From positions 1 through 34,331 of the forward strand of contig SHVV01000009.1 of assembly GCA_009694095.1 (NCBI GenBank): 34,331 nucleotides of DNA. Reading direction: 5' to 3'. Shown one piece after another: positions 10,107 to 32,041 of the stretch. This DNA is from Alphaproteobacteria bacterium. Its GTDB lineage: Bacteria; Pseudomonadota; Alphaproteobacteria; SHVV01. The translations under genes were made by a program, and so were the position numbers. Position 1 is the stretch's first letter. Every line of letters begins with the position of its first letter. Under the pieces are notes generated by a model. It had not been told where the DNA came from. It did not search any database and worked only from the letters and a program-made list of their open reading frames with translations.

Positions 10107-10712
10107 CTAGACGATCTTTCGCTTGAGTTTCTTGGCGAGATCGTTGGGCTGCTGTCCGGGCCTGAAAATATCGACGAAGGCACCTTCAGGACTCATCAGG
10201 TAGATGAATCCGGCGTGTTCGATCATGAACATGCCGTCTCGGTTGGCTGGTCCTTTGAGAGCATAGGCGCGGTACACCTTGGTGATCGCGGCGACCTGCG
10301 CCGACGACCCGGTGAGGCCGACAAAACGCGGATGAAACGCGCCGAGGTACTCCTTGATTGCCGCCGGCGTATCGCGCTCGTCATCGACCGTCACGAACAG
10401 CGGCTGCACTCGCTCGAGCGTCGCCGGCGGGAACAGGTCAAGCGCGGCCGAGATGGTCTGCAACTCGGTCGGACAGATATCGGGGCAGTTGGTGAACCCG
10501 AAAAACACCAGCATGTATTTGCCGCGGTAGTCGGCGTCGGTCACTGCCTTGCCAGTGTGGTCGATCATCGCGAACGGCCCGCCGACCTTGGTCGACGTTA
10601 CGTCGTCGATGATACGAAACCCGCGCTCCGGTCCGTAGACACCGACAATGATCGCAGCGCCGGCGACAAGCACGATGAGCCCGTAGAGGACGGCGCGGAT
10701 CCAAACCAGCAT
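10107..10712 (-). CDS. SCO1/SenC family copper chaperone/thiol protein
   Basis: 201 aa; N-terminal TM, FGFTNCPDICPTELQTIS (CxxxC), FVTVDDERDTPAAIKEYLGAFHPRFVGLTG, IEHAGFIYLMSPEG. Confidence 0.93.
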   Translation of the reverse strand: MLVWIRAVLYGLIVLVAGAAIIVGVYGPERGFRIIDDVTSTKVGGPFAMIDHTGKAVTDADYRGKYMLVFFGFTNCPDICPTELQTISAALDLFPPATLERVQPLFVTVDDERDTPAAIKEYLGAFHPRFVGLTGSSAQVAAITKVYRAYALKGPANRDGMFMIEHAGFIYLMSPEGAFVDIFRPGQQPNDLAKKLKRKIV

Positions 10713-17130: not shown

Positions 17131-17993
17131 GGGCCAGCGCTTCCAGCCAGTTCGCGCAACCGACGAATACGATTTTCCGCGGACGGGTGTGTTGAAAATA
17201 AACCATCAACGGCATGGGCATGAAGCGGATTAACGATGAAGAGGTGGGCCGTCGCTGGGTTGGCTTCGGCGGTGTGGTTCTCGATCTGCCCTGAAGCGGC
17301 GTGAAGCTTCCGGAGCGCGGACGCGAGCCAGAGCGGCTTGCCCGAGATGGCGGCACCGACGCGATCGGCCTCGTATTCACGGCTGCGGCTGATCGCCATC
17401 TGCACCAGCATCGCGGCAAGCGGGGCGAGGATCGCGACAAGAATCATACCGACAATGCCGAGCGGACTGCCGCTCCGCTCGTCGTTGCCGCGGGCCGCGC
17501 CGAAAAACATCGTAAAGTTCGCCAGCATGCCGAGCGCCCCGGCGATCGTCGCTGCGATCGTCATGATGAGCGTGTCGCGGTTCCGAACGTGCGCCAGTTC
17601 GTGCGCCATGACGCCGGCGATCTCCTCAGCGGTGAGACTGCGCAGAAGCCCCGTCGTCGCGGCGACGGCGGCGTGGTCGGGATTGCGCCCAGTAGCGAAC
17701 GCGTTCGGCTGATCGCTATCGACGACGTAAAGACGTGGCATTGGCAGCCCGGCGCGGCTCGCGAGCTGTTCGACGATGCCATAGAATGCCGGCTCGGTCC
17801 GATGATCGACTTCGCGTGCGCCGTACATGGAGAGGACCATCTTGTCCGAGTTCCAGTACGCGAATAGGTTGAGCGCCAGCGCGAGAGCAAATGCGATCAA
17901 CGTCCCGCCCTCCCCGCCGATCATGAATCCGGCGCAGAGGAAGAGCGCGGTCAGCGCGGCGAGAAAAAGGGCGGTGCGAGTATAACCGGTCAT
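17121..17993 (-). CDS. htpX: Zinc metalloprotease HtpX
   Basis: 290 aa; [103 protein letters not shown]. Confidence 0.96.
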
Positions 17994-18096
17994 GGTTGAA
18001 GCGAAACGAGTCGCGAAGATCCTAGTGCTGAGCTTAGAATGCGCCAGGGAATGTAGTGGAAAAAAACGCCGTTTCCAGTCTCAGAATGAGGATGCC

Positions 18097-18315
18097 GTGA
18101 CCGACCCGAGAGCGCCCATGGATTCAAAGTCTACTGCCGCATATCTAGCTCCGGCGGTACCGATCGACGGCGCTAAGAGCGGCGATTCGACGGTGCCGAC
18201 CGCAGCGGCGCCGGCAGAATACCCCGATCCCGCCACTGAAATTGGCGGCCCCACCGGGCCCGAGCCAACCCGTTACGGCGATTGGGAGCGAAAAGGCATC
18301 GCCGTCGATTTCTGA
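18097..18315 (+). CDS. DUF1674 / succinate dehydrogenase assembly factor 4-like protein
   Basis: C-terminus PDPATEIGGPTGPEPTRYGDWERKGIAVDF matches the DUF1674 signature. Start uncertain: GTG 18097 or ATG 18118; the track ORF starts at 17992. Confidence 0.85.
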   Translation: MTDPRAPMDSKSTAAYLAPAVPIDGAKSGDSTVPTAAAPAEYPDPATEIGGPTGPEPTRYGDWERKGIAVDF

Positions 18316-18349: not shown

Positions 18350-19084
18350 TCAAGCGAGCAGCGTTCCGACTCCGACCAACAGCAAAAACACGAGAACGAC
18401 CCGGCGATAGGTAGCCTCGCTCGATTTGTCGAACAAATTGGCCCCGATCCAAGCCGCAACGAGAAAGATCGGCCCGATGATTGCCGCCCGCCACCACGTT
18501 TCAGCGGTATAGATACCGCTGACGGCATAGGCGCCGATCATGTAGACGCTCACGATGGCGAAAAAGGTGATCAGGTTGGCTCGGTTGCTCTCGGACCGCG
18601 CTGGTGTCGAAAGCAAGTAAATAACGACCGGTGGACCGCCGAGACCGGTTGCGCCCATCAGCGCGCCCGACGCAGCGCCTATGCCGATCGTTGCCGCGCT
18701 CGATATTCGTCCCCCATAACGAACGCCGGCGAGCATGAAGACAGCCCAGAGCAGAACGACAAGTCCGATGAAACGGCGGATTAGGTCGGCATCGACCGTG
18801 AGCAGCGCCCAGACCCCGAGCGGTGCCGCGACCGCCGCTGCTCCGGTCAATCGCCCGATCATCGGCCAATCGGTGCTCCGCGCCGCGCGCGGCAGCAACT
18901 GAAACGAAACCGCGACTTCGAGAACCATGAGCGTGGCGATCGCTTGGGCCGGTTCAATCGCGAGCGCCCATAGCGGCAACACGGCCATCGCCGAACCGAA
19001 GCCGGTGTAGCCGCGAATGACTCCGCCGATCGTCGCGACCAGCATGAGATAGGCAAACCCGAGTGAAAGAACTTCGATCGGCAC
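18350..19084 (-). CDS. TSUP (TauE/SafE) family permease, paralog A
   Basis: 244 aa; GGVIRGYTGFGSAMAVLPLWAL, FQLLPRAARSTDW, GALMGATGLGGPPVVIYLLSTPARSESNRANL. Confidence 0.92.
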   Translation of the reverse strand: MPIEVLSLGFAYLMLVATIGGVIRGYTGFGSAMAVLPLWALAIEPAQAIATLMVLEVAVSFQLLPRAARSTDWPMIGRLTGAAAVAAPLGVWALLTVDADLIRRFIGLVVLLWAVFMLAGVRYGGRISSAATIGIGAASGALMGATGLGGPPVVIYLLSTPARSESNRANLITFFAIVSVYMIGAYAVSGIYTAETWWRAAIIGPIFLVAAWIGANLFDKSSEATYRRVVLVFLLLVGVGTLLA

Positions 19085-19089
19085 CAGGC

Positions 19090-19836
19090 TCAGACGATGA
19101 AAGCGGCGAATGCGGTCGCGACGATCGCGGCCAGCGCATAGCGCCGAAAAACGACATCGCTAACGCGCCCAAACAGCTTAGCGCCGAGCACCGTTGCAAG
19201 GATTACGATCGGCGCGAGGGCGAAACCACGTAGAATCGGCGCGCTCGACATCTCTCCGTTCGCGACAAGCGCGATGGTTGCCGCCGACACCATGAAAAAT
19301 GACAACATGACGATGTTGGCGCGCAGGTGCTCTGCCGCCGAACGGCTTGCTAAGACGTAGAGAATGAGGAGCGGGTTGCCCATTCCCGTCGCGCCGGTGA
19401 TCACGCCGCTGCTGATGCCAATGCCGATGCTCGCCGGCAGCGTCTGCCGGCCGCGGTAACGGGCGCCAAGCAGCATAATCAGAGCGAAGATGAGCGCGGT
19501 CGCGGCGATCGAGCGGCGGACCAGCAATGCATCGGACGACACCAGGAGAAAAGAGCCGAGCGGAACTGTGAGCCAGCTCGAGAGGGCAAGCGGGGTGACC
19601 ACGCGCCACTCGGTGCGCTTGACGGCGCGTGGCACCAGTTGCGCCGCGGTGATGAGTTCAAGCACAAGGATGGTCGCGATGCCCTCGACCGGCGAATAGA
19701 GGACGGCCAGAACGGGCGCGCCGACCATGGCAACGCCAAATCCGGCGAAGCCTTTGACAATGCCGGATACGCCGATCGCTAGAGCCGCCACGGCAAAGGT
19801 CAATGTGCCGAGTTCGGCGAACAGAGCGTCGATCAT
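19090..19836 (-). CDS. TSUP (TauE/SafE) family permease, paralog B
   Basis: 248 aa; SGIVKGFAGFGVAMVGAPVLAVLYSPVEGIATILVLELITAAQLVPRAVKRTEW, GVITGATGMGNPLLILYVLASRSAAEHLRANIVM. Its ATG overlaps the stop of paralog C. Confidence 0.92.
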   Translation of the reverse strand: MIDALFAELGTLTFAVAALAIGVSGIVKGFAGFGVAMVGAPVLAVLYSPVEGIATILVLELITAAQLVPRAVKRTEWRVVTPLALSSWLTVPLGSFLLVSSDALLVRRSIAATALIFALIMLLGARYRGRQTLPASIGIGISSGVITGATGMGNPLLILYVLASRSAAEHLRANIVMLSFFMVSAATIALVANGEMSSAPILRGFALAPIVILATVLGAKLFGRVSDVVFRRYALAAIVATAFAAFIV

Positions 19837-20564
19837 TTGATCAGCGCGACGAGTCCAGAAGCGGCAATCACCGCGAAAGCGACGCCACGGAACAGCCGGT
19901 CGCTCGAGCGATCAAAAAAACGAGTGCCGACCCAAGCGCCAACGAGAACGATCGGCGTCAACAGGACCGAACGCCACAGTGCCGACATCATAAGCGCGTC
20001 GTGAAAGGCGAGCACCGCAAGCAGATACACGATGATGACGGCGGCAAACACCAAGTTACTGCCGCGGATTCGAGTCACGGGGGCCGGCGAAGACAACATA
20101 TAGAGGCCGGTGATGGTTCCGCCCATGGCCGCGCTTCCGGCGGCAAATCCGGCGAGCAAACCGGTTATAAAAGACGCCAACTTGTTGAATGGTCCCGGGT
20201 AGCGCCAGCCGACGTACATTAAGACCGTAAAAACAACGACGGTGATTCCTATCCCGCGTTGAATGATCTTCGGATCGGCGGCGACCAAAACCGCAGCGCC
20301 AAGCGGAATGGTCAGCAGGAGGCCGGCCAAAATCGGCAGCGACATCGACCAGTTGGTCTCGCGGAGCGCTCGCGGCAGCAACTGGAATGTCGTCGGCACT
20401 TCGAGCAGCAGCACCATCACGACCGCCTCGATCGGCCCAAACAGCACAGTGAGCAACGGCATCATGAAGATGCCGCCGCCGAAACCGGCGAACCCTTTGA
20501 TGATACCGCCGGCGACCGCGATCGCCGCGGCCAGAGCGAGTTCGGGCACGAACACCGTGTCCAC
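19833..20564 (-). CDS. TSUP (TauE/SafE) family permease, paralog C
   Basis: VDTVFVPELALAAAIAVAGGIIKGFAGFGGGIFMMPLLTVLFGPIEAVVMVLLLEVPTTFQLLPRALRETNW...GFAAGSAAMGGTITGLYML. Start not certain (GTG near 20564); the track extension to 20810 overlaps paralog D and is unlikely. Confidence 0.88.
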   Translation of the reverse strand: MDTVFVPELALAAAIAVAGGIIKGFAGFGGGIFMMPLLTVLFGPIEAVVMVLLLEVPTTFQLLPRALRETNWSMSLPILAGLLLTIPLGAAVLVAADPKIIQRGIGITVVVFTVLMYVGWRYPGPFNKLASFITGLLAGFAAGSAAMGGTITGLYMLSSPAPVTRIRGSNLVFAAVIIVYLLAVLAFHDALMMSALWRSVLLTPIVLVGAWVGTRFFDRSSDRLFRGVAFAVIAASGLVALIK

Positions 20565-20635
20565 GGCTAACACCCGACTGTCATTGCCGGCCGCACCGTG
20601 AATTCGAACGAGGTCGAAATATGGGAAACATTTGG

Positions 20636-21367
20636 CTATCCGATGAGGGCTGCAGCGCCCGCGAGCACTAGAAGCGACAGTGCTACACGGTGGTACAACA
20701 CGTCGCTTGCGGCGCCGTAGAGCCGCCCGCCGGTCCAAGTCACGACCCAGTAAACCGGCGCTAGAATCGCGGCTCGCCACACCATCGCCGCGCTGATCGC
20801 GTCTTGCCACAGCAATACGAGCAGAAGGACCGTCACGGTGATGGCGAAAAACATGATGATTCCGGCCCTGGTGCGGTCGGCATTCTCGGTGCGCGAAAGT
20901 ACGTACAGCAGAACCGGCGGGCCGCCGAGTCCGGTTCCACCCATCATCAGTCCGGCGAGCGCGCCGACCCCGAAGGTAATGGCCGGCCGCTTCGGACCAC
21001 GGTAGCGCCAGCCGCTCAAGGTGATAAGCGCGAACGAAAGAACCAGTACCCCGATGACGCGACGCATGAGGTTAGGGTCCGCCGCGACCAAGGCCCAAAC
21101 GCCGATGGGTGTAAAAAGCCCGCACAGCAAGCTGAGCGGACCAATCAGAGTCCAGTCGGTCCGCGGTAGCGCTCGCGGCAGAAGTTGGTACGAGGCGAGC
21201 GCCTCGAGCAGCGTCGTGATCGCGATCGCCTCGATCGGGCTGTAGATGAGCGCTAGTGGCGGCGTCATTATCATGCCGCCGCCGAAGCCGGCAAAACCCT
21301 TGGTAAGACCGGCGACCACAGCCACCAACGCAGCGAGCACAAGGTCAGAGTTGAGAATATCCGGCAT
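20636..21367 (-). CDS. TSUP (TauE/SafE) family permease, paralog D
   Basis: MPDILNSDLVLAALVAVVAGLTKGFAGFGGGMIMTPPLALIYSPIEAIAITTLLEALASYQLLPRALPRTDW...GLMMGGTGLGGPPVLLYVLSRTENADRTRAGIIMF. The track extension to 21955 is antisense/overlap noise. Confidence 0.92.
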   Translation of the reverse strand: MPDILNSDLVLAALVAVVAGLTKGFAGFGGGMIMTPPLALIYSPIEAIAITTLLEALASYQLLPRALPRTDWTLIGPLSLLCGLFTPIGVWALVAADPNLMRRVIGVLVLSFALITLSGWRYRGPKRPAITFGVGALAGLMMGGTGLGGPPVLLYVLSRTENADRTRAGIIMFFAITVTVLLLVLLWQDAISAAMVWRAAILAPVYWVVTWTGGRLYGAASDVLYHRVALSLLVLAGAAALIG

Positions 21368-21375
21368 GAGCGCTG

Positions 21376-22113
21376 TTAGCGCATGATTGCGGTGGCGCCG
21401 GAGAGCATCATCAACGCGTAGGCGATGCGGCGGAACGTGCCCTCGCTTGCCAACGGGTAGAGCCTCGATCCGAGCCACAACGATCCCAGGAAAAGCGGCA
21501 AGACGAACGCGGTCCGCCACAGCCCCATCACCGTCACAGCGCCATTCCAGGCAAAGGCAATGACGATGAAACTCACCAGCACCAGAAAATAGCTGGTGAT
21601 ATTGGCGCGAAAGCTCTCGGCCGATTTCGATGTCGCGAGAAAATACGCGATGACCGGCGGGCCGCCCATGCCGGTGCCGCCAGCCAGGATACCCGCTAGT
21701 CCGCCGACCGCGAGGGATATCGGCATGTTGATGGGACCTCGATAGCGCCAGCCAGTCATCAGGAACGCCGTGAACGCGATGACCAACGCGCCGATGAAGC
21801 GGCGCATGAAGTCCTGATCGAGGTTGATGAGAAGCGCCGTACCGACAGGGATTAGCACGGCGCTGCCGATGACGAGATAACTCACCTTGCGCCACTCGGT
21901 CCGCGGCAAGGCCCACGGAAACATTTGCACCGATCCGAACGCGTCGAGCAGGCATGTGATAACGACGGCTTCAGGCGGCCCGAACAACACGCTGAAAAGC
22001 GGCAGCATGATGAAGCCGGAGCCCATCCCGGCGAACCCGCGCGTCAACCCGGCGAGAACCGCGATGCCAGTTGCGAGCGCGAGGTCAACGGCGAGAAGAC
22101 CGTCCGGAATCAT
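21376..22113 (-). CDS. TSUP (TauE/SafE) family permease, paralog E
   Basis: 245 aa; AGLTRGFAGMGSGFIMLPLFSVLFGPPEAVVITCLLDAFGSVQMFPWALPRTEW, GILAGGTGMGGPPVIAYFLATSKSAESFRANITS. Confidence 0.92.
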   Translation of the reverse strand: MIPDGLLAVDLALATGIAVLAGLTRGFAGMGSGFIMLPLFSVLFGPPEAVVITCLLDAFGSVQMFPWALPRTEWRKVSYLVIGSAVLIPVGTALLINLDQDFMRRFIGALVIAFTAFLMTGWRYRGPINMPISLAVGGLAGILAGGTGMGGPPVIAYFLATSKSAESFRANITSYFLVLVSFIVIAFAWNGAVTVMGLWRTAFVLPLFLGSLWLGSRLYPLASEGTFRRIAYALMMLSGATAIMR

Positions 22114-22243
22114 GGAAGCAAACGATCCGGTCGCGCGCGCTCGCAGCCGACATCAATGAATGCGTTCGACAATCGACGTTCCTTCCCGGTCTTCCGACGA
22201 TGTCCGTGCGGGAGCTTGAATCGCGGTTTCGGCGGTGCCTCCT

Positions 22244-24199
22244 CTATCCAATGTTGGCACGGTTTTTGACGAGGTCCTCGACCACAGCGGGATCGGCCAG
22301 TGTGGTGATATCGCCCAAGTCCTTGTGCTCGTTGGCGGCGATCTTGCGCAGAATCCGGCGCATGATCTTACCCGAGCGCGTCTTCGGCAGACCGGGCGCC
22401 CATTGGATAAGGTCGGGGGTTGCGATCGGCCCGATTTCTTTGCGCACCCACTGGACGAGCTCTTTTCTCAAGTCTTCGTCGGCCGTGACGCCGCGTTTGA
22501 GCGTGACGTAGGCGTAGATGCCCTGACCCTTGATGTCATGCGGATAGCCGACCACGGCAGCTTCGGCGACCTTGGAATGGCCGACGAGGGCGCTTTCGAT
22601 CTCGGCGGTGCCGAGTCGGTGCCCCGCCACGTTGATGACGTCATCAACTCGTCCGGTGATCCAGTAGTATCCGTCCGCGTCGCGCCGGCACCCATCGCCA
22701 GTGAAATAGCGGCCAGGGAACGTCTTGAAGTAGGTGTCGATAAAGCGCTGGTGATCGCCATACAAGGTACGCATTTGGCCTGGCCACGAATCGGCAATGC
22801 ACAAGTTCCCGGTCGTCGCGCCAGCGAGTTCCTTGCCCTCGCCATCGACGATCACCGGCTTGATGCCGAAAAACGGCCGCGTCGCTGAGCCTGGTTTTAG
22901 ATCGGTAGCGCCGGGAAGCGGCGTGATCAGAATGCCGCCGGTTTCGGTTTGCCACCACGTATCGACAATCGGGCAACGCCGATCGCCGATCACGCGGTGA
23001 TACCACTCCCACGCTTCGGGATTGATTGGCTCGCCGACCGAGCCGAGCAGACGAAGTGACGCGCGTGACGCCTTGATGACCCAGGCATCGCCTTCGCGCA
23101 TTAGCGCGCGTATCGCCGTCGGCGCCGTGTAGAAGATGTTGACCTTGTGCTTGTCGACGACCTGCCAAAAACGGCCCGGATCGGGATAATTCGGCACGCC
23201 CTCGAACATGACGGTGGTGGCGCCGTTCGAGAGCGGCCCGTAAATAATGTAGCTGTGGCCGGTCACCCAACCGATATCGGCGGTGCACCAGTAGATGTCG
23301 CCGTCGTGGTAGTCGAAGACATATCGGTGGGTTATCGAGGCGTAGACCGCGTAGCCGCCGGTCGTGTGCAGCACGCCTTTGGGCTTTCCGGTCGAACCCG
23401 AGGTGTAAAGGATGAACAGCGGATCCTCGGCATTCATAGGCTCGGGCGCACAGTCGGTCGAGGCTTTGGCAGCGAGGTCGTGATACCAGTGGTCGCGTCC
23501 GGCGACCCAGTTCACTTTTCCCCCGGTGCGTTTGACGACGATCACGGTGTCGACCTTCGGGCACTTCTTGAGTGCTTCATCGGTGTTGGCCTTGAGCGGA
23601 ATCGGACGACTGCCGCGCAGACCTTCGTCGGAGGTCACGATGATCCGACAGTCGGCGTCGAGGACTCGACCGGCGATCGATTCAGGAGAAAATCCGCCGA
23701 AGATGATTGAATGGACAGCCCCGATTCGGGCGCACGCCAGCATCGCGTAGGCGAGTTCGGGGATCATCGGCAGATAAATCGTAACCCGTTCGCCCTTCTT
23801 GACTCCACGAGCCTTGAGGACATTCGCGAACCGGCTAACCTCGGCGTGAAGCTCGCGATAGGTGATGTGCTTCGAGACGTTGGGGTCGTCGCCCTCCCAG
23901 ATGATCGCGGTCTGATCCGCCCGCTTGGCGAGGTGGCGATCGACGCAGTTCGCGGAAATATTGAGGACGCCGTCGTAGTACCAGCGAATCCCGACATCGC
24001 CCGAAAAGGTCACGTCCTTGATTTTGGTCGGCGGCTTGATCCAGTCGATGTGCTTCGCCTGTTCGGCCCAAAACGCGTCCGGGTCCTCGACCGACCGTTT
24101 GTAGAGCGCGAGGTACTGTTCGTGCGTGCACCATGTCCGCTTTTTCCACTGATCGGGGACGCGATGAATTACGTCAGCGCACATCGGCTGGCTCCTCAC
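22244..24199 (-). CDS. acs: Acetyl-CoA synthetase (AMP-forming acetate-CoA ligase)
   Basis: 651 aa; [127 protein letters not shown]. Confidence 0.97.
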
Positions 24200-24281: not shown

Positions 24282-25490
24282 TCACCGACCTTCGACTCGC
24301 TTCGGTGAACCGACGAGAAAAATCTGCGACGCGAGCCCGACGAGGCCCGCGAAGGCGATCGCCCCGGCCATCGGCAGTGCGCGGCCATCGAATACCGTGC
24401 CGACCAGGGCACCCAGGATCGCGCCCAACGCATAGTGCATCGTCCCCATCAGGGCCGATGCCGTACCAGCCATATGAGGGAAATCTGCGAGTGCACCGGC
24501 CGTGCCGTTCGAAGCAGTCACTGCAATCGTCATCAGGTAGCAGAAAAGCGGAATGACGATCGCCAGTAGGCCGCCCAAGCCAACGAGGGCGAATACCGCC
24601 ATCACGCTTGCGGCAAAAGCCGCCCAAGCGGTCGAGAGAACCAACATGCGATCGACGCCGAACCGCGTCACGAACCGGCTGTTCAGGCTGGCACATACCA
24701 TCATTCCGGCGACGTTGGTGGAGAAGATCAGAAAGAAGTATTGCGGCGGGATGCCGAAGGTGTCGATGAATACGAACGGCGACCACGAAATGTAAACAAA
24801 CATACCGGCGAGGATGAATCCGCTCGAGAAGGCATAGCCGAGGTAACGCCGGTGAATCAGGAGCTCACCGTATGACTTCACCATGGCCGCGGCATTGTGG
24901 CGGGTGCGTCGCTCACCCGACAGCGTTTCCGGCAGTAAAAAAATGACCATGGCGATGCAGATGACGCCGAATCCCATCAGAATCCAAAACACGCCGCGCC
25001 AACCCATGAAGGTGAGGACTTGGCCGCCGAGCGCTGGCGCCAACAATGGCGCCGCCGCCATGATCAGGAACAGGATCGAGAGCATTCGCGCTGCCTCATT
25101 TTTCTCGAATAGGTCGCGAACGACGGCGCGCGCCAGCACCGGGCCGACCGCGCCGCCAAATCCTTGGATGAAACGCATCGCGATCATCGTCTCGACGTTG
25201 GTTGCGAGCGCGCATCCCAAACTAGCGATCACATAGAGGGCGATCCCGACGATGAGCGGCAAGCGCCGGCCAAAGCGGTCCGAGATCGGGCCGTAGAACA
25301 ATTGCGCCAAGGCAAAGCCGACGAGAAGTGCCGACAAAGTCAGCTGCACGCTCGCTTCATCGGTCGCAAATTCGCGCGTGATGGTCGGCAGACTAGGCAG
25401 ATACATGTCGATCGACATCGGCCCGAACGCCGAAAGAGCGCCGAGCGTGAGGACCAGCCCGCGATTCTTAGCCTGGTTCGTGATCGTCAT
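24282..25490 (-). CDS. MFS transporter, Bcr/CflA-type multidrug efflux
   Basis: 402 aa; LGALSAFGPMSIDMYLPSLPTITREFATDEASVQLTLSALLVGFALAQLFYGPISDRFGRRLPLIVG is the characteristic Bcr/CflA N-terminus. Confidence 0.93.
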   Translation of the reverse strand: MTITNQAKNRGLVLTLGALSAFGPMSIDMYLPSLPTITREFATDEASVQLTLSALLVGFALAQLFYGPISDRFGRRLPLIVGIALYVIASLGCALATNVETMIAMRFIQGFGGAVGPVLARAVVRDLFEKNEAARMLSILFLIMAAAPLLAPALGGQVLTFMGWRGVFWILMGFGVICIAMVIFLLPETLSGERRTRHNAAAMVKSYGELLIHRRYLGYAFSSGFILAGMFVYISWSPFVFIDTFGIPPQYFFLIFSTNVAGMMVCASLNSRFVTRFGVDRMLVLSTAWAAFAASVMAVFALVGLGGLLAIVIPLFCYLMTIAVTASNGTAGALADFPHMAGTASALMGTMHYALGAILGALVGTVFDGRALPMAGAIAFAGLVGLASQIFLVGSPKRVEGR

Positions 25491-25909
25491 CGCGCCCGAT
25501 TGGGTGGTGAGTGATCGCGCGGATCGGCGGGTGGACGCGCAGGCGCGTCGGGCCAGCGACCCATGACGACGTCTTCACCGCGAACTTCGACATTGAACCC
25601 AAGCAGGCGCCGGCCGCCGCAAGGGCCGGCGACGCAGACGCCGTCGTTCAAGCGGAATACGGCGCCGTGCTGCATGCAATACAGGTACTCGCCGTCATCG
25701 GTCAGGAACTCTCCCATGTAACCATCGAGCGGCAGAAACTGATGCGGGCAGACATTGACGTAAGCGATCAACTCGGCGCCCTTGCGGGCGACGACCACCG
25801 GGAAGATGGCGCGCGCCGCACCGTAAAGGTGCGACCAGGTGCCGCCATCGGGTATGTCGGCGAGCGCGCAGAGCTTCTCGCCGGCTCGCGGCGCGACTGG
25901 CGGAAACAC
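25487..25909 (-). CDS. Rieske [2Fe-2S] domain protein (1)
   Basis: 140 aa; CPHQFLPLDGYMGEFLTDDGEYLYCMQHGAVFRLNDGVCVAGPCGG. Overlaps the MFS start by 4 nt. Confidence 0.9.
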   Translation of the reverse strand: MFPPVAPRAGEKLCALADIPDGGTWSHLYGAARAIFPVVVARKGAELIAYVNVCPHQFLPLDGYMGEFLTDDGEYLYCMQHGAVFRLNDGVCVAGPCGGRRLLGFNVEVRGEDVVMGRWPDAPARPPADPRDHSPPNRAR

Positions 25910-25921
25910 GACTAGCCGCCG

Positions 25922-26320
25922 CTATTTATCGGTGACGACAACAGTGCCGTCGACGACCTTGACCGGCACTGCGGACAAATAATGCCCGTGGCAGGGTCCG
26001 GCGACGCAGCGACCATCGTCGATGCGAAAGATCGCGCCGTGCATAGCACAGATGATGAATTGGTCGTCTTCGGTCAGGAATTCACCCGGCTTCCAGTCGA
26101 GCGGGCCGTGAACGTGGGGGCAGTCGTTGGCGTAAGAAAACAACTCCGCGCCGCGCCGCAATATAAACATGCGGTACTGCTCGAAACCCTTGCCGAAGTG
26201 GAATGTTTTAGTCCCGCCGTCGGCGATATCGTCGATGCGACACAATATGTGGCCGGGCTGCGGTCGGTTGACTTCGCGCGCCTGCAGAGGATTGAGCGCC
26301 ACCGGTTCCTCGTCGCTCAT
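25922..26320 (-). CDS. Rieske [2Fe-2S] domain protein (2)
   Basis: 132 aa; CPHVHGPLDWKPGEFLTEDDQFIICAMHGAIFRIDDGRCVAGPCHGHYL. Confidence 0.9.
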   Translation of the reverse strand: MSDEEPVALNPLQAREVNRPQPGHILCRIDDIADGGTKTFHFGKGFEQYRMFILRRGAELFSYANDCPHVHGPLDWKPGEFLTEDDQFIICAMHGAIFRIDDGRCVAGPCHGHYLSAVPVKVVDGTVVVTDK

Positions 26321-30976: not shown

Positions 30977-32041
30977 TTGCCGGACAACGATTCCGTCATT
31001 GACGCGTCCATCGTGGACGAAACACCCGAGCCGAGCCGGAAAAAAGGCGAGCCGCGCTCAACTCGGCGCATCGCGTGGGCGTTCCTCCTCGTCATCTTAG
31101 CCGTTGTTTTCGTCGCCGGATTTTTTGTCGCCGAGACCTACCGCTCGAGATCGAACCGATCGGTCGGCGGCGACGACGCGCGCACGACTGCTCTCGATTC
31201 GAAGTCCGAAAAATCCGAGCCGGCGGCTCCCGGCGTTGCGCCCACGCCCCGCGAACAACCGGCCGCGCCCGCAGCGACCAAACCTATCGTCAATTCGGTC
31301 GCACTCACCGACGGCAACGAGGCGGCCATGTCGGAAGAGCTTCGCGCCCGACTCGACCAGCTCGATACCCGCCTGGCGGCGGCCAAGCGTCTGGGTTCGG
31401 CCGAGAAATTGGCGGCGCTCGGTGATGAAATTCGCCGCACCGATGATCGTTTGAGCGCGCTAGAGCAGCAGGTGTTGATTCTCGTCCGCGACCTAGCGCG
31501 GAGCGAACCAGGCCGGATCGCGCTTTTGCTCGCAGCGAGCGATTTACGCGTCGCCGTCAAAGCCGGTCTTTACGCAACCGAGCTTGCGGCCGTGGCGACG
31601 CTGGTCGAAAGGAGCGTGCTGCGCGACGATGCGAACGTCCGCGAAGCGCTGGCAACACTTGCCCAACGTCGCGAACTCGGCCTCGCGACACCGGCGCAGC
31701 TTCGCGCCCGATTTGGCCAACTCGCTGGAGCGATCGCCACCGCGCGTAACGCGGAAGGCTCTTGGATCGATCGTGCGTGGCAGCGCGCCGCCACGATCGT
31801 CACCGTCCGGCGCACCGGCGACGCCGCGGTCAAGGACAGCGAGGTGCGAGTCGCCCTCGCCGAACGCCGGCTTGACGCCGGCGATGTTTCCGGCGCGCAT
31901 GCCGAGCTCGCCGGGTTAGCCCCCGCAGCGCGGGCGATCGCCCAACCCTGGCTCGACGAAGCAGCGGCGCGCGTAATGGCGGAACGGGCAAGCGCCGGCC
32001 TTTACGCTCGTCTCGTGCGCTATGCCGCCGGGGAAACTTAA
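30977..32041 (+). CDS. Mitofilin-like (COG4223) inner-membrane protein
   Basis: TTG start, 354 aa; single N-terminal TM (RRIAWAFLLVILAVVFVAGFFVAETYRS), coiled-coil middle, C-terminal mitofilin-like helical region; located between hemD and hemY. Confidence 0.8.
   Translation: MPDNDSVIDASIVDETPEPSRKKGEPRSTRRIAWAFLLVILAVVFVAGFFVAETYRSRSNRSVGGDDARTTALDSKSEKSEPAAPGVAPTPREQPAAPAATKPIVNSVALTDGNEAAMSEELRARLDQLDTRLAAAKRLGSAEKLAALGDEIRRTDDRLSALEQQVLILVRDLARSEPGRIALLLAASDLRVAVKAGLYATELAAVATLVERSVLRDDANVREALATLAQRRELGLATPAQLRARFGQLAGAIATARNAEGSWIDRAWQRAATIVTVRRTGDAAVKDSEVRVALAERRLDAGDVSGAHAELAGLAPAARAIAQPWLDEAAARVMAERASAGLYARLVRYAAGET

Follow-up and report, generated by a model that had tools for sequence, protein, structure and literature searches.

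A conserved array of five diverged TSUP permease genes next to acs in a poorly known aquatic lineage

Introduction

The TSUP family (TauE/SafE, PF01925, formerly DUF81) is a very widespread family of transporters of which few substrates have been tested, and for which sequence search finds no solved structure. Two TSUP or TauE-like proteins have been linked to small organic acids: KbuT from Neisseria meningitidis, with a mutant phenotype involving alpha-ketobutyrate (PMC12671195), and SO_1333 from Shewanella oneidensis, with a mutant phenotype involving growth on acetate (PMC3219624). Here we describe a locus with five TSUP genes, T1 to T5, in a window of 34,331 nucleotides, by which we mean the whole stretch of DNA analysed. 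The likeness of T1-T5 to KbuT and SO_1333 is one of family assignment; no five-gene array is described for either protein and, in contrast to T1-T5, KbuT is encoded among methylcitrate-cycle genes (PMC12671195).

Judged by its sequence, the array is a real, conserved and unusually large tandem expansion of a known family, with an old and maintained divergence among its members. It marks a poorly known aquatic lineage as one that invests unusually in a single transporter family, and five diverged members kept intact in one putative operon would offer a natural series for linking residues with substrate choice.

Results and Discussion

Layout and identity of the array

The five genes are consecutive on the minus strand and are flanked by acs and by a gene that is convergent with T5:

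22244..24199, minus strand: acs, acetate--CoA ligase (TIGR02188, 1043 bits against a cut-off of 725), upstream of the array, co-oriented with it and adjoining it in all three genomes compared
22114..22243, minus strand: acs-T1 spacer of 130 nt, with the block TCGATTGnCGAnCGC kept in the three genomes
21376..22113, minus strand: T1, TSUP permease of 245 aa heading the array (PF01925, 84.8 bits)
20636..21367, minus strand: T2, TSUP permease of 243 aa (PF01925, 81.1 bits)
19833..20564, minus strand: T3, TSUP permease of 243 aa with a GTG start (PF01925, 93.9 bits)
19090..19836, minus strand: T4, TSUP permease of 248 aa (PF01925, 78.9 bits)
18350..19084, minus strand: T5, TSUP permease of 244 aa with a GTG start, ending the array (PF01925, 99.6 bits)
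17992..18315, plus strand: DUF1674 gene (PF07896), the far border of the slot that holds the array

In a Pfam profile search all five proteins matched PF01925 (TauE) with E values from 6e-22 to 3e-28, and the matches extend from profile positions 1-3 to position 235 of 237, that is, over the full length. Since the scores lie far above the curated gathering cut-off of 32.6 bits, the matches are not due to chance; score and length, together with the helices predicted for T2, mark the proteins as full-length members of the family. A named NCBIfam family was found for none of them. The junctions from T1 to T5 measure 8, 71, -4 and 5 nt, the negative value being a 4-nt overlap of T4 with T3 (AATGA) that is the same in the three genomes.

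A sequence-only reading of this DNA had described five consecutive minus-strand TSUP genes with this spacing, and the open reading frame coordinates, profile scores and gaps bear it out. The three motifs that it quoted are present, their key residues being invariant across the 15 genes of the three genomes (G24, G27, G29, Q61, P64, A66, W72, G139, G143 and G148 in T2 numbering), and its description of the copies as clearly non-identical agrees with pairwise identities of 34-42%. It also proposed one apparent operon, which is upheld by the common strand and by short or overlapping junctions that are kept across genomes. Internal promoters and terminator-like sites are no more frequent in the array than in shuffled sequences, so that nothing splits it, and T1-T5 would be co-transcribed as a single operon.

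Conservation within the genus

The comparison within this order covers three genomes (n = 3; G000, G001 and G002), all of one genus. The draft genome of the window is 63% complete at 1.88 Mb; it encodes seven TSUP genes above the cut-off, and T1-T5 are five of these. Both relatives that carry the array, VGEO01000009.1 and CAMDOQ010000017.1 (isolate TH-11nov19-65), are metagenome-assembled; the isolate name of the former, K_Offshore_80m, fits the naming used in a Lake Tanganyika study (PMC8245535). The array is intact in all three genomes, with its order and its place between acs and DUF1674-htpX-rsmB unchanged, and the conserved clustering that had been named beforehand as a check was thereby found. 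In both relatives the junctions from T1 to T5 are 10, 3, -4 and -1 nt, and T4 and T5 overlap as TGATG. The T2-T3 junction (20565-20635 in the window) is 71 nt long in the genome of the window versus 3 nt in both relatives; about 68 nt would have been either gained in the former or lost in the latter.

Orthologues in G001 and G002 share with the window 75% identity for T1, 63-65% for T2, 74-75% for T3, 70-71% for T4 and 72% for T5, which makes T2 the most rapidly changing gene of the array. Between the two closer genomes the dN/dS ratio is 0.07-0.16 for every gene; these values indicate that each gene of the array is under purifying selection and that none of the copies is decaying.

Occurrence of TSUP arrays in other genomes

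In order to see how common such arrays are, a profile of T1-T5 was run under strict thresholds against 385 genomes from the class and 399 from the phylum, two overlapping sets that total about 740. No array of more than three TSUP genes was found elsewhere among the best six or seven candidates scored per genome, a design that arrays of more distant TSUPs would escape. The other adjacent sets are three genes in one genome (G054; L070, 734-2974), pairs in family f135 (L087-L089) and pairs in two further genomes (G654 and G678). They resemble T1-T5 in that TSUP genes adjoin in one direction, but they contain fewer genes and have different surroundings; those of the three-gene array, which belongs to the same wider clade as T1-T5, are mobA, fdhD and moaA. 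Another 21 genomes from the class were searched for all PF01925 genes; 18 of them gave matches, from one to eight in each, with no two separate TSUP genes adjacent. T2 had no match on plasmids, and our literature search found no account of such a TSUP array. Within the genomes searched the array is uncommon, although its uniqueness is not proved.

Descent of the five genes

A tree of 75 TSUPs resolves each of T1-T5 as an orthologue trio of its own across the three genomes with 100% bootstrap, so all five genes predate the split of these genomes. The copies had been proposed to be old, and the five trios, kept under purifying selection, confirm this. Their age and divergence bear on the possibility that the genes are redundant copies of one carrier that raise its expression. 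The tandem layout would suit such a dosage effect, but the copies share only 34-42% identity, carry residues fixed specifically within each trio and have been retained as five distinct lineages since before the genomes split, making this explanation highly improbable.

T1 and T2 are sisters (support 98/94), and at least one tandem duplication in the history of the array is thus well supported by the phylogeny. The wider clade that contains T1-T5 (95/95) also includes the three-gene array of G054 and single TSUPs from other families. T5 clusters with single TSUPs from f80, f67, f82 and other families (93/93), and the placement of T4 lacks support, so that the five genes are not one clade in the best tree. 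Constraining them to one clade costs 13 lnL units and is not rejected (AU p = 0.125). The proposal of an old duplication in place therefore stands for T1 and T2, and is left in doubt for the array as a whole by the separate position of T5.

These results leave room for an array that was partly recruited, in which T1 and T2, perhaps with T3 and T4, arose by duplication at the locus, while T5, and perhaps T4, would derive from different TSUP lineages and have been brought in through selection for co-expression. The grouping of T5 with single TSUPs and the poor resolution of T4 speak for such an origin, as does a slot between acs and DUF1674 that in another family (f148) contains a TSUP from an unrelated branch; on the other side, a single clade of the five is not rejected and adjacent tandem copies of the same kind favour local duplication. 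We regard recruitment as possible, with a probability well below even. It would be compatible with specialised carriers.

The acs-DUF1674 slot

The acs neighbour, the convergent DUF1674 gene and the older gene block around the array were absent from the sequence-only reading. Upstream of the array there is also, co-oriented like acs, a gene for a Bcr/CflA-type efflux protein. Downstream, DUF1674 on the opposite strand is followed by htpX, rsmB, rpe and a heparinase-like gene on the strand of the array; the annotated start of DUF1674 lies 2 nt inside the start of htpX, and its actual start may lie deeper within the reading frame.

The order acs, DUF1674, htpX or rsmB, heparinase is also found in other families, where the gap between acs and DUF1674 is empty or holds other genes (L099, L106, L107). 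In family f148 (L074, L077) the same position, between acs and DUF1674-rsmB, is occupied by a single TSUP gene, which in L074 lies behind a TetR gene. The array occupies the variable slot of an older block, acs-[slot]-DUF1674-htpX-rsmB, at a site that seems to accept insertions. The single TSUP of f148 differs from the array in being one gene, in the regulator beside it (L074) and in branching outside the T1-T5 clade, and its candidacy as the direct ancestor of the array is unsupported given that position in the tree.

The distance between acs and T1 varies from 105 to 222 nt across the three genomes, and TCGATTGnCGAnCGC is retained before T1 in all of them. Because this block is kept despite the varying distance, it may be part of a promoter or leader, a hint of a promoter that belongs to the array itself. 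The longest spacer, 222 nt in G002 (L061, about 10155-10376), contains palindromic stretches, CCTCATGGTGAGC...GAACCATGAGG and CCTCGTCCTTCGACGAGCTCAGGACGAGG, that are missing from the other two genomes and look like a dispersed palindromic repeat.

Predicted structure and the motif change in T3 and T4

T2, the one protein modelled, gave an AlphaFold model with a pLDDT of 92.5 and a pTM of 0.89, in which eight long and two short helices are predicted. Breaks at residues 27-29 and 146-148, where the two glycine motifs are located, precede the starts of the short helices. Helix breaks in secondary carriers are often substrate sites. The two halves expected from the internal TSUP repeat align with a P value of 0.011, but with a probability of only 3.9%. 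A profile of T1-T5 matched no solved structure among PDB sequences, and a fold search of the PDB with the T2 model returned only weak matches, the best being the undecaprenyl-pyrophosphate phosphatase BacA/UppP (5oon; TM 0.46, probability 0.99, E 0.04). A distant relation between the TSUP and BacA folds is possible on this weak match, which was set aside as a guide to function.

The second helix break is followed by PP in 67 of the 75 TSUPs, and of the eight that deviate, six are the T3 and T4 proteins from the three genomes, which sets these two apart from the common form of the family. In T3 the motif reads SAAMGGTI or AAAMGGTI (PP replaced by TI), and in T4 it is ATGMGNPL (GGPP replaced by GNPL). 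Altogether 46 alignment positions are fixed inside each trio and different between trios, and these include the second helix break of T3 and T4. The motif change marks candidate residues for substrate choice.

An alternative use of the altered motif would be a multi-subunit TSUP system, in which T3 and T4 would accompany T1, T2 and T5 in a non-transporting or regulatory role. All five genes are kept together in the three genomes with a geometry suggestive of translational coupling, and in each genome T3 and T4 deviate at the PP motif. Elsewhere TSUP genes are mostly solitary, which indicates that single proteins suffice for function in this family, and we consider a hetero-oligomer very unlikely; if it existed, a family of mostly solitary genes would have given rise to a multi-subunit carrier.

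Substrates and function of the array

The family takes its name from TauE and SafE, and by analogy with them the array might export sulfite, sulfoacetate or related sulfur anions, of a kind that the sequence-only reading had named among TSUP substrates. These founding members are established (cited in PMC12671195 and PMC3219624), but the Pfam name spans the whole family and says nothing on substrate. For Xsc, the route searched, no protein over the cut-off was found in G000, G001 or G002, incomplete drafts among them, where the best score was 273 bits against 676, and no sulfonate enzyme was present among the identified neighbours of the array. Sulfur anions are possible substrates that found no support here, and their export by the array appears unlikely.

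No homologue of ActP was detected in the three genomes at E 0.001; two of them are incomplete drafts, in which absence is weak evidence. Isocitrate lyase over the cut-off was likewise lacking from these three genomes (two incomplete drafts), which means that acetate could support growth only by a different route. The gene contexts of related single TSUPs were considered as a guide to substrates and rejected, being mixed and pointing to no common substrate. The linkage to acs was similarly rejected as proof of acetate transport, given that the order acs-DUF1674-htpX-rsmB exists without a TSUP, and as a sign of a functional link this neighbour is weak. By analogy with KbuT and SO_1333, small carboxylates would be guessed first, at roughly even chances, for some or all of the five proteins.

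With somewhat better than even confidence, we propose that T1-T5 are one operon of diversified TSUP secondary carriers for small organic anions, partly tandem-duplicated, each protein acting as its own carrier. Tandem duplication would account for at least part of the array, which fills the slot flanked by acs and DUF1674-htpX-rsmB, and would predate the divergence of the genus's three known genomes. Each protein, with eight membrane helices and two broken helices, most likely functions on its own, and the carriers would have diverged in binding; in T3 and T4 the second break has itself been altered. If all are produced at once, an aquatic heterotroph may possess a set of carriers whose specificities for small organic anions differ or overlap. 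These anions would most likely be carboxylates or keto acids, some of which perhaps feed the neighbouring acetyl-CoA synthetase. This proposal is favoured by full-length PF01925 proteins, by an array order kept in all three genomes, two of which have no junction longer than 10 nt, and by the adjoining acs in genomes where ActP was not found. Against it, the best tree splits the five genes, and the linkage to acs may be a chance of place in a block that also occurs without TSUP genes.

Other genes of the window

Farther along the window, a 354-aa open reading frame without a Pfam match at E 0.001 (30977-32041) lies between hemD and a HemY_N gene. Two small Rieske-domain proteins are encoded adjacently (25487-25909 and 25922-26320; together 25487-26320) and are followed by an EVE-domain gene.
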